From an uncultured Pelagibacteraceae bacterium (GTDB taxonomy: Bacteria > Pseudomonadota > Alphaproteobacteria > Pelagibacterales > Pelagibacteraceae), in NCBI GenBank assembly GCA_902557935.1, contig CACECJ010000002.1, positions 1-64,000 of the forward strand: a stretch of DNA of 64,000 nt, in the 5' to 3' direction. Each line of letters starts with the position of its first letter. The first letter of the stretch is position 1. The position numbers were made by a program, and so were the translations under genes. The notes under the pieces were generated by a model. The model was not told the DNA's origin. It saw only the letters and a list, made by a program, of their open reading frames with translations, and made no database searches. Positions 15,102-18,032 of the stretch are shown here, piece after piece.

Positions 15102-15724
15102 ACTTTTGGAATTTCCTCGCCTTTTTTTAACAAATCATAACCTTTAATTACAGCTTCTCTTTCAGATATCTGATTATACCACCTAGATAAATTAGAAAAT
15201 CTTTTTAGACCTATATCATGCCACTCATGTCTTGCGATCCATGGGAAAGTTGCTATGTCTGCGATTGTATAATTTTTTCCAGCGAGAAATTCAGAAACTG
15301 CTAATCTTTCATCAAGTTCATTATAAATTTTCTCTGAAATCTTAAAATATCTTTTTTCTCCAAAATCACTTTTGCCTGGATTATAATGATGAAATTGATG
15401 GTGTTGTCCCAACATGGGTCCAACATAAGCCATTTGACCCATTAACCATTGAATTATATTTGTGCGTTCTTTTTTATCATAAAACTTTCCACTTTTTTCA
15501 CCTAGATAAATTAATATTGCACCTGACTCAAATAGACTTTGCTTATTTTCATGATCAATTATCACCGGAATTTTCCTGAATGGACTTAGTTTGGCAAATT
15601 CTGGTTTAAATTGTTCGTCCTTATTTATGTTTACTTTTGTAACCTTATATTTAAAATTAATCTCCTCAAGCATAATAGAGATTTTCTTACCGTTTGGAGT
15701 ATTGGCGGTAAGTAATTCGATCAT
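15098..15724 (-). CDS. Nu-class glutathione S-transferase (YfcG/YghU-like)
   Basis: A 208-aa GST. The thioredoxin-fold N-domain starts IELLTANTPNGKKISIMLEE, the TPNGxKxxxxLEE pattern typical of Nu-class disulfide reductases, followed by KIPVIID and the glutathione-binding FESGAILIYLGEKSG. The all-alpha C-domain carries YTIADIATFPWIARH. It probably acts as a glutathione-dependent disulfide reductase or peroxidase in the cytoplasm. Its ATG overlaps the stop of the FNR-type gene, making it the last gene of the run that includes ferredoxin and FNR. This context suggests a redox role. Confidence 0.88.
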   Translation of the reverse strand: MIELLTANTPNGKKISIMLEEINFKYKVTKVNINKDEQFKPEFAKLSPFRKIPVIIDHENKQSLFESGAILIYLGEKSGKFYDKKERTNIIQWLMGQMAYVGPMLGQHHQFHHYNPGKSDFGEKRYFKISEKIYNELDERLAVSEFLAGKNYTIADIATFPWIARHEWHDIGLKRFSNLSRWYNQISEREAVIKGYDLLKKGEEIPKV

Positions 15725-16734
15725 TTTTTTCCAAGTCTATCTTGTATTGTTTTAGAGGAAGTGGTGAATTCAAACCTATATTTTTCGTTTGGTCTTGCCC
15801 TTTTGAAGCACTCAACAGAAGCAAGCGCAACTTCATGAAAGCCGGAAAGAATTAATTTTAATTTTCCAGGGTAAGAACAGATATCGCCAGCTGCAAATAT
15901 TCCTTTTTTGCTAGTTTCAAAATTTTTTGGATTCACCTCAATAGTTTTTTTGTCCATATTCAAACCCCATTCAGCTATTGGGCCTAATTTCATTATTAAA
16001 CCAAAAAATCCAAGTATTATATCCGTAGGAATTTTTTCTTTTTTCCCATCATCAAATTTAATAGTGATAAATTTTAAATGTTTCTCATCGTCTAAAGCCT
16101 CTATTTGACAAGGAGTTTTTATTGAAACTTTCCCTTCATTTTCTAATTTTTTAATTTCTGAGAGAGTATGCTGTGCTCCTCTGAATTCGTTTCGTCTATG
16201 TATTAGTGTTATTTTTGAGAATTTCGAAAGCTCTAGAGCCCAGTCTAAAGCTGAGTCTCCTCCACCAAAAATTGAGATCTTTTTATCTTTAAATTGATCT
16301 TTTTTTCTCACTGAGTAAAATACTGATTTTCCCTCGAGTTTCTCTGCTTCTTTTAGAGAAATCTTTCTTGGTTCAAATGAACCTATTCCACCAGCAATTA
16401 AAACGTTAGGCGCAATAAATTCTTTTTTGTTATTTGTTTTTACCACCCAATTTTCTTTTTCTTGGTGAACTTCTTCAACTCTCTCATTTAAAAATATTTC
16501 GGTTTTAAATGGTTTTATTTGTTCAAGCAGTCTTGTGGTCAATTGTTCACCAGTGCATTCCGGCACTGCAGGAATGTCATATATAGGTTTATCTGGGTAA
16601 AGTTCAATGCATTGTCCGCCGGCTTTATCTAGATTATCAATAACGACAGCGTTGAGACCTTTGATGCCCAATTGATGTACTGCGAATAAGCCAACAGGTC
16701 CAGCGCCAATAATTATAACATCAGTTTTTTTCAT
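15721..16734 (-). CDS. Ferredoxin--NADP+ reductase, TrxR-like type
   Basis: A two-domain FAD/NAD(P)H flavoprotein of 337 aa. FAD binding is shown by DVIIIGAGPVGLFAVHQLG and the late FAAGDICSYPGK motif, and NADPH binding by ISIFGGGDSALDWA. The CxxC pair of true thioredoxin reductases is missing: the region reads FYSVRKKDQFKDKK. This points to the TrxR-like ferredoxin-NADP+ reductase family rather than TrxB. The track opens at TTG 16737, but the ATG at 16734 is the better start and overlaps the ferredoxin stop as TGATG. A ferredoxin directly upstream supplies the obvious partner. Confidence 0.9.
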   Translation of the reverse strand: MKKTDVIIIGAGPVGLFAVHQLGIKGLNAVVIDNLDKAGGQCIELYPDKPIYDIPAVPECTGEQLTTRLLEQIKPFKTEIFLNERVEEVHQEKENWVVKTNNKKEFIAPNVLIAGGIGSFEPRKISLKEAEKLEGKSVFYSVRKKDQFKDKKISIFGGGDSALDWALELSKFSKITLIHRRNEFRGAQHTLSEIKKLENEGKVSIKTPCQIEALDDEKHLKFITIKFDDGKKEKIPTDIILGFFGLIMKLGPIAEWGLNMDKKTIEVNPKNFETSKKGIFAAGDICSYPGKLKLILSGFHEVALASVECFKRARPNEKYRFEFTTSSKTIQDRLGKK

Positions 16735-17054
16735 CAAGTTTGTTTTTCTGGTGTTGAAACTTCTAAACCCTCTAAATCATCAGTAACAATAATTTGACAA
16801 CTTAATCTACTATTTTTTTTTGGTTCAAAAGCCATATCAATCATATCAACCTCTGCATCCTCTGCTTTTGGAATTTTATTAAACCAATTTTCATTTATAT
16901 AAACATGGCATGTCGCACAAGCCATTGATCCCCCACAATCAGCATCTATGCCTGGTATCTCATTTTGAATTGCGCCCTCCATGACCGATAGACCTGATTC
17001 AACTTCTATTATTTTAGAATTACCTTGACAATCTTTGTAAGTAATTTTTGGCAT
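16734..17054 (-). CDS. [2Fe-2S] ferredoxin, adrenodoxin/ISC type
   Basis: A 106-aa electron carrier. The cluster ligands are C40, C46 and C49 (DADCGGSMACATCHVYI) plus C86 (SRLSCQI), the C-x5-C-x2-C...C spacing of vertebrate-type ferredoxins. It is translationally coupled to the ferredoxin--NADP+ reductase gene downstream. Proteorhodopsin and a 44-aa membrane ORF lie immediately upstream on the same strand. The partner enzyme accepting or donating electrons beyond the FNR is not evident here. Confidence 0.93.
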   Translation of the reverse strand: MPKITYKDCQGNSKIIEVESGLSVMEGAIQNEIPGIDADCGGSMACATCHVYINENWFNKIPKAEDAEVDMIDMAFEPKKNSRLSCQIIVTDDLEGLEVSTPEKQT

Positions 17055-17057
17055 AAT

Positions 17058-17192
17058 TTAATAGTATGCTAAATAAATCGAAATTATTACTACCCAGAAG
17101 AAAGCATAATAAAGTATATACCCTTTAACAGTGAAGGGCATTTTTTTTAATCTTCTTTTTCCTTTTCCTTTGTAAGGCTTAGATATTTCCAT
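17058..17192 (-). CDS. 44-aa single-pass membrane micro-ORF between proteorhodopsin and ferredoxin
   Basis: I found this by reading the gap; it is too short for the ORF track. It encodes a 44-residue protein starting MEISKPYKGKGKRRLKK, with a strongly basic N-terminus. A hydrophobic helix rich in aromatic residues follows (about residues 24-44, GYILYYAFFWVVIISIYLAYY-like). The pattern predicts a small inner-membrane protein with its basic end in the cytoplasm. The stop lies 3 bases from the ferredoxin ATG, which argues for co-translation with ferredoxin and FNR. It begins just after the proteorhodopsin terminator. I do not recognise the family; the ribosome-binding site is weak. Confidence 0.6.
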   Translation of the reverse strand: MEISKPYKGKGKRRLKKMPFTVKGYILYYAFFWVVIISIYLAYY

Positions 17193-17206
17193 AGTTTATT
17201 AATATC

Positions 17207-17245
17207 AAAAAAAAAGGGCAAGTATGTGAGACATACCCGCCCTTT
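17207..17245 (-). terminator. Rho-independent terminator after proteorhodopsin
   Basis: AAAGGGC..GTATGT pairs with ACATAC..GCCCTTT around a GAG-type loop (17213-17245), and on the minus strand the stem runs straight into nine U residues (17207-17215). It sits 16 bases after the proteorhodopsin stop. It should separate proteorhodopsin mRNA from, or attenuate into, the micro-ORF/ferredoxin/FNR/GST run. Confidence 0.8.
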
Positions 17246-17261
17246 CTAATTAGTTTATCTA

Positions 17262-18032
17262 TTATCTAGATGATAATCTTGTGTTTTGCATTGCTGCTGC
17301 CCAAATAACTAGACCAAAAGCGATCTTGTTAACAAAGTCAGCTAAATTGTAAATTACGTTTAAAGCATTTGCATCAACACCACCAGTTAGGTAACCGAAA
17401 ATATATCCTAAAGGATATATTGCCCAACCAATAGTTACGATTATTCTCATTGCGCTGAACGCTGTAGACATAGCTTTGTTACCAGCTTTTGCCGCCATCG
17501 TTCCTGCTTCACCTGAGAATATTTCAAACAAGATGTAAATCCATCCAGCCATTCCAATTACGAAACCTACAAATGGTTGAATATAACCAGCTTCACCTAA
17601 GTATCCACCAATTAACATTACTAATGAACCAATTAATAGTTTCCAGAATATAGAAGTTGGCACCTTTCTAACAGCTGCCAAGATTAGATAGAATTCTATC
17701 ATTTGAAGTGGCACTGTGATTAACCAATCGATATATCTGTATACCGTTGGAGAGTCACCTGTACTCACCCAAACTTCTCTCATATACATGTAGTGAACAA
17801 ATGCAACACCAGTTACAAGTCCAGCTACTGTTAAAGATGTTCTCCATGATGCAGCAACAGTTCCTCTTTCTGCAAAGAAAAACACAGTTGTTGCGATCAT
17901 TCCCATTGAAACAAGCCAGAATGAAATTCCTACGAAATCATTTGTTTGTAACAATGCAGTCGCTGCGTTAGCTGAGCTTGTGATACCTAAAAAGGCAACA
18001 GCTGCTAAAGCAAATAGACCTAATTTTCTCAT
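17262..18032 (-). CDS. Proteorhodopsin, blue-absorbing type, proton-pump residues intact
   Basis: A 256-aa seven-helix retinal protein that pumps protons out of the cell in light. It has a cleavable-looking signal peptide (residues 1-23, ending SSANA). The proton acceptor D102 and donor E113 are both in RYIDWLITVPLQMIEFYLI, matching Asp97/Glu108 of green proteorhodopsin. The retinal lysine is K236 (ADFVNKIAFG) and the helix-B His is H80. The spectral-tuning position (105 in the reference) is Gln110, which indicates blue absorption. The gene has the strongest Shine-Dalgarno in the window and its own terminator, which implies high expression. No retinal biosynthesis gene is in the window. Confidence 0.97.
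   Translation of the reverse strand: MRKLGLFALAAVAFLGITSSANAATALLQTNDFVGISFWLVSMGMIATTVFFFAERGTVAASWRTSLTVAGLVTGVAFVHYMYMREVWVSTGDSPTVYRYIDWLITVPLQMIEFYLILAAVRKVPTSIFWKLLIGSLVMLIGGYLGEAGYIQPFVGFVIGMAGWIYILFEIFSGEAGTMAAKAGNKAMSTAFSAMRIIVTIGWAIYPLGYIFGYLTGGVDANALNVIYNLADFVNKIAFGLVIWAAAMQNTRLSSR

Follow-up and report, generated by a model that had tools for sequence, protein, structure and literature searches.

A conserved 44-residue membrane microprotein gene occupies alternative operon positions in SAR11 Pelagibacteraceae

Results

A 44-codon gene between proteorhodopsin and ferredoxin

The window analyzed here is a stretch of 64,000 nucleotides of contig CACECJ010000002.1 from an uncultured Pelagibacteraceae bacterium, whose genome assembly (G000) spans 0.93 Mb and is 83% complete. 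Named relatives of the locus are SAR11 Pelagibacteraceae. A preliminary description had reported an open reading frame for a 44-residue protein in the gap between proteorhodopsin (PR) and a ferredoxin gene. This frame is real and lies on the minus strand, which that description had left out. The features of the locus are, in the direction of transcription:

17262..18032, minus strand: proteorhodopsin (Bac_rhodopsin, PF01036)
17211..17247, minus strand: intrinsic terminator 3' of PR, common to genomes with and without the micro-ORF
17193..17210, minus strand: 18-bp spacer between the terminator and the micro-ORF ATG
17058..17192, minus strand: micro-ORF, 44-aa CDS with ATG start and TAA stop, encoding MEISKPYKGKGKRRLKKMPFTVKGYILYYAFFWVVIISIYLAYY; the product comprises a cationic tail (residues 1-23, net +8), a G24-Y25..Y28-Y29 motif and a predicted transmembrane helix (22-43)
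16734..17054, minus strand: 2Fe-2S ferredoxin (PF00111; the nearest NCBIfam model, ISC-type ferredoxin TIGR02007, scores below cut-off)
15721..16737, minus strand: FAD/NAD(P) pyridine-nucleotide oxidoreductase, thioredoxin-reductase-like (type-2 ferredoxin reductase-like; FNR)

The coordinates confirm that the micro-ORF ends 3 bases ahead of the ferredoxin ATG (17054-17052), and the oxidoreductase gene in turn overlaps the ferredoxin stop. The micro-ORF had also been said to begin just past a PR terminator, and an intrinsic terminator was indeed found there: a stem of 17 pairs (17247-17211) followed by a T run, placed between the end of PR at 17262 and the micro-ORF. The RNA of the gap folds with –24.4 kcal/mol (z = –7.0).

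The micro-ORF is under purifying selection

A tblastn search at a loose cut-off (E ≤ 10) gave matches in 187 of 297 family genomes, and strong matches (E < 1e-14), free of internal stops, in about 70 genomes of the window's own genus (g1). We read 90 homologous copies in full; none has an internal stop, and their lengths differ by whole codons only. Among the 72 distinct own-genus CDSs of similar length, pS was 0.634 and pN 0.068, giving a pN/pS of 0.107, compared with a mean of 0.73 and a minimum of 0.41 in 100 column shuffles. Over 42 codons, third positions vary at 40 sites, first positions at 17 and second positions at 13. The preliminary description had proposed frame conservation and selection as the check on its gene call; the frame is kept in relatives, and the micro-ORF is a true protein-coding gene under purifying selection. 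Where the order PR–micro-ORF–ferredoxin is present (42 genomes), its pN/pS is 0.073 versus 0.204 for ferredoxin, so that the PR-located gene is under tighter constraint than the ferredoxin of the same genomes.

The product is a predicted single-span membrane protein

The positively charged N-terminus noted earlier carries a net charge of +8 over residues 1-23, compared with 0 over residues 24-44, and this asymmetry holds across the 90 copies (+7 to +11 in the N-part, –1 to +1 in the C-part). The single membrane helix is borne out as a prediction: AlphaFold2 gives one helix at residues 22-43, with pLDDT of about 95 over the C-terminal half and about 60 in the tail. Invariant or nearly invariant across four genera are M1, K5, P6, K8, K17, P19, T21, G24, Y25, Y28, Y29 and I39. 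With fewer than 50 residues, one hydrophobic helix and asymmetric charge, the product has the predicted properties of a single-span membrane microprotein. According to the positive-inside rule the cationic end of such a protein is cytoplasmic, and because of its cationic tail the product is predicted to sit N-in, with a short exposed C-terminus.

The window protein had no match in Pfam or NCBIfam, its homologs had only sub-threshold matches in Pfam and PHROGs, a PDB profile search returned nothing below E = 0.44, and Rfam gave no match over the region. A search of the order and of 240 genomes of the class with one profile found nothing convincing outside the family; we regard the matches with E values of 0.002-0.1 as probably due to chance, apart from three g4 genomes (G190, G212 and G220). 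These carry, ahead of an agmatinase gene, a K-rich ORF of 39-41 residues with a single helix and the pattern YI..YY.FFW.VLI (L050 5954-6073, L051 5992-6117, L084 2813-2932), which is a lead only and possibly a distant homolog. Our literature search found nothing on this gene, the smORF studies retrieved being eukaryotic or methodological.

Two oxidase components were considered and rejected as identities. Subunit IV of aa3-type cytochrome c oxidase (COX4_pro_2, PF07835) resembles the micro-ORF product in having about 45 aa and a single C-terminal helix; the micro-ORF does not match the profile, and the window genome has its own true COX4_pro_2 gene (G000:C2:74110-74196). FixQ/CcoQ (PF05545), likewise a small single-helix oxidase component, was matched by one of 12 members at E = 0.43, which is not significant and falls below the gathering score.

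The gene occupies alternative positions

The 90 copies fall at three sites. PR accounts for 42 of them and a gene for acetyl-CoA acetyltransferase (thiolase), which the micro-ORF follows, for 44; the other 4 lie between nadA and fhs, three of these about 45 nt downstream of tRNA-Leu. The thiolase-located copies come from three other genera (g2, g3 and g8) and from about 30 genomes of g1. They lie directly 3' of thiolase, usually overlapping its stop codon; in G211, whose protein is identical to the window's, the micro-ORF starts inside that codon. Among genomes with both loci readable, 21 have the gene at PR only, 23 at thiolase only and none at both (Fisher p = 5e-13, relatedness uncorrected). 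In thiolase-located genomes the PR–ferredoxin gap is just 73-86 bp, and PR, terminator, ferredoxin and FNR remain together without the micro-ORF. Conversely, in PR-located genomes no micro-ORF intervenes between thiolase and the gene after it, commonly a histone-deacetylase-like gene at a distance of 12-15 bp. Both sites are empty in G150 and G219, which carry the gene at the nadA-fhs position. G175 has a further match with three stops, which was considered as a decayed second copy; as it lies among riboflavin genes, an unrelated place, we treat it as a chance match. In the window genome (83% complete) no thiolase match was found.

Both sites are also empty in G004, a 98% complete genome of g1. 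By tblastn, which could miss very divergent copies, no micro-ORF was detected in G004 or in related SAR11 genera, complete genomes included, so the product cannot count as a universal housekeeping protein. Outside g1, G008 and G016 have the micro-ORF and no PR match, both genomes being 77-80% complete. Most of the compared genomes are incomplete. Most named loci bear AG- or AH- names, which we take to denote single-cell genomes, and binning artefacts are for this reason less likely.

Two other small ORFs were seen near thiolase. In some genomes (L097 1265-1480, L098 and L102), thiolase is separated from the genes after it by a Cys-rich ORF (MKTYSCKKCGLTIP..) with a Fur-box-like TAATGATTATCATTA upstream. 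A second conserved-looking ORF of 42 aa (..NLDAKFWVQKILLKK..) lies behind thiolase on the opposite strand in g3 and g8 (L034 6114-6242 and L036 6121-6249, both minus strand), and similar DNA is present there in other genera.

Putative expression signals differ between the sites

At the thiolase site, stop and start overlap as TAATG in most own-genus copies and as ATGA in most g2, g3 and g8 copies, which suggests translational coupling. In most gaps at the PR site, TTGCCC in the 3' arm of the terminator is followed at a distance of exactly 16 nt by TATATT or a close variant. By a tally made by eye, this holds for 16 of the 18 empty gaps and for at least 25 of the 42 filled gaps (L078-L082 and L161-L173 among others). 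The cluster's first ATG, be it that of ferredoxin or of the micro-ORF, usually follows 6-7 nt past TATATT. This arrangement suggests a promoter that uses the terminator arm as its –35 element and yields a nearly leaderless mRNA. The PR terminator is still found in the empty gaps of thiolase-located genomes, where read. An overlap of terminator and promoter with a near-leaderless ferredoxin mRNA may be the arrangement in most relatives. The spacing between TTGCCC and TATATT has been lost in the window's own subgroup.

Discussion

Three other genera also carry the gene at thiolase, and from this we infer that, within the gene family, thiolase is the earlier position; the place beside PR and ferredoxin seems to result from a later move. 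In other SAR11 genera thiolase is followed by a dehydrogenase-complex gene with no micro-ORF, which probably reflects a gain or insertion at thiolase before the move to PR. The PR/not-PR label changes 5 times on a PR tree of 60 genomes and 4 times on a thiolase tree of 50, both far below shuffled labels, neither tree being certain and the micro-ORF tree being too short to count moves. Two genomes with the gene at thiolase, G211 and G161 (L002 and L017 versus L078 and L079), have different neighbors in the two trees, a conflict consistent with recombination. No flanks that would explain the relocation of a 135-bp gene are visible. In the 42 PR-located genomes, pS is 0.25 for PR versus 0.62 for ferredoxin and 0.60 for the micro-ORF; recombination sweeps or strong codon constraint are two readings of the low synonymous divergence of PR.

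The frame is short and its spacer AT-rich, as a chance opening would be, but the codon-position pattern, a pN/pS far beyond the shuffle null and preservation of the frame at three unrelated sites make it practically inconceivable that this is not a gene. The preliminary description went further and proposed an accessory role, as a pump partner or as a membrane anchor for ferredoxin/FNR. The conserved membrane micro-ORF on which this proposal was built is real; the role itself had been drawn from position and is not supported, since relatives carry the gene elsewhere (thiolase, nadA-fhs) and keep PR–ferredoxin–FNR intact without it. An accessory subunit or partner of PR is very unlikely. The gene adjoins PR on the same strand in 42 own-genus genomes and both products are membrane proteins, but a conserved terminator separates the two, 44 genomes keep the micro-ORF at thiolase, away from PR, and many PR-bearing genomes of other genera do not have it. 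The synonymous divergence of the two genes also differs, and G008 and G016 carry the micro-ORF without a PR match, though they are incomplete; neither a conserved neighborhood nor co-occurrence with PR is thus seen. It also seems quite unlikely that the product would anchor or regulate the ferredoxin/FNR pair. At PR the micro-ORF heads a tight ferredoxin–FNR cluster, whose next gene it either overlaps or precedes by no more than about 20 bp, and ferredoxin is near-universal in these bacteria, so that a role in trans is possible. However, about half of the genomes hold the gene at thiolase or nadA-fhs with ferredoxin and FNR still together, most genera have ferredoxin and no micro-ORF, and the neighborhood with ferredoxin is not conserved.

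The arrangement most widely shared is the one at thiolase: in g1, g2, g3 and g8 the micro-ORF comes right after thiolase and in most cases overlaps its stop codon. A membrane tether or regulator of acetyl-CoA acetyltransferase, acting at the acetoacetyl-CoA step, would account for this, yet we consider it rather unlikely: 21 genomes retain thiolase without a neighboring micro-ORF while the gene sits at PR, and other SAR11 genera have thiolase and no micro-ORF. A short, cationic, single-helix product whose gene is patchy between genera and changes place also recalls type I toxin-like hydrophobic peptides. Translational coupling to metabolic genes, a single copy, a pN/pS of about 0.1 and the absence of an Rfam match in the region render this reading extremely doubtful.

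On balance, we favor the view that the gene encodes a single-copy, single-pass inner-membrane microprotein of part of the SAR11 family, which probably serves as an accessory or regulatory subunit of a membrane protein encoded elsewhere. This view draws on the coding constraint, the alternative positions, the absence of a second copy wherever both main loci were read, and the cationic tail with its predicted helix. The thiolase-coupled gene would represent the older state, later relocated into the PR–ferredoxin gap, where it would now head the ferredoxin cluster as its first cistron. Its product would insert in the membrane as a stand-alone helix and bind a larger membrane protein encoded elsewhere, and the neighboring genes would supply only its expression. 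Against this favored explanation counts the thiolase coupling in four genera, which could reflect a functional link to thiolase.

CydX, AcrZ and KdpF are single-span bacterial microproteins that serve as small accessory subunits. The micro-ORF product is like them in its size below 50 residues, single helix, strong conservation and the ease with which annotation overlooks it. Unlike the micro-ORF product, these proteins usually have a known partner; the micro-ORF, for its part, has no Pfam match and moves among unrelated operons. The contexts in which it is found are thiolase-coupled, ferredoxin-promoter-coupled and behind tRNA-Leu. We tentatively suggest, as a possibility only, that a one-copy microprotein more constrained than ferredoxin has repeatedly changed operon, its ATG set each time on a translation or transcription signal already there, and that it represents a new family of membrane-complex subunits specific to part of SAR11.

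SAR11 genomes are famously compact, and gene order is kept among them: 96% of SAR11-homologous Sargasso Sea fragments agree with the gene order of HTCC1062 (PMC2217521). A conserved 44-codon gene that swaps operons and has no family name is therefore unusual in this setting. The case also carries a caution, in that a function guessed from adjacency to PR would have misled. Should the microprotein act in a large membrane complex, the known energy or transport machinery of a very abundant group of bacteria would gain an unnamed part.
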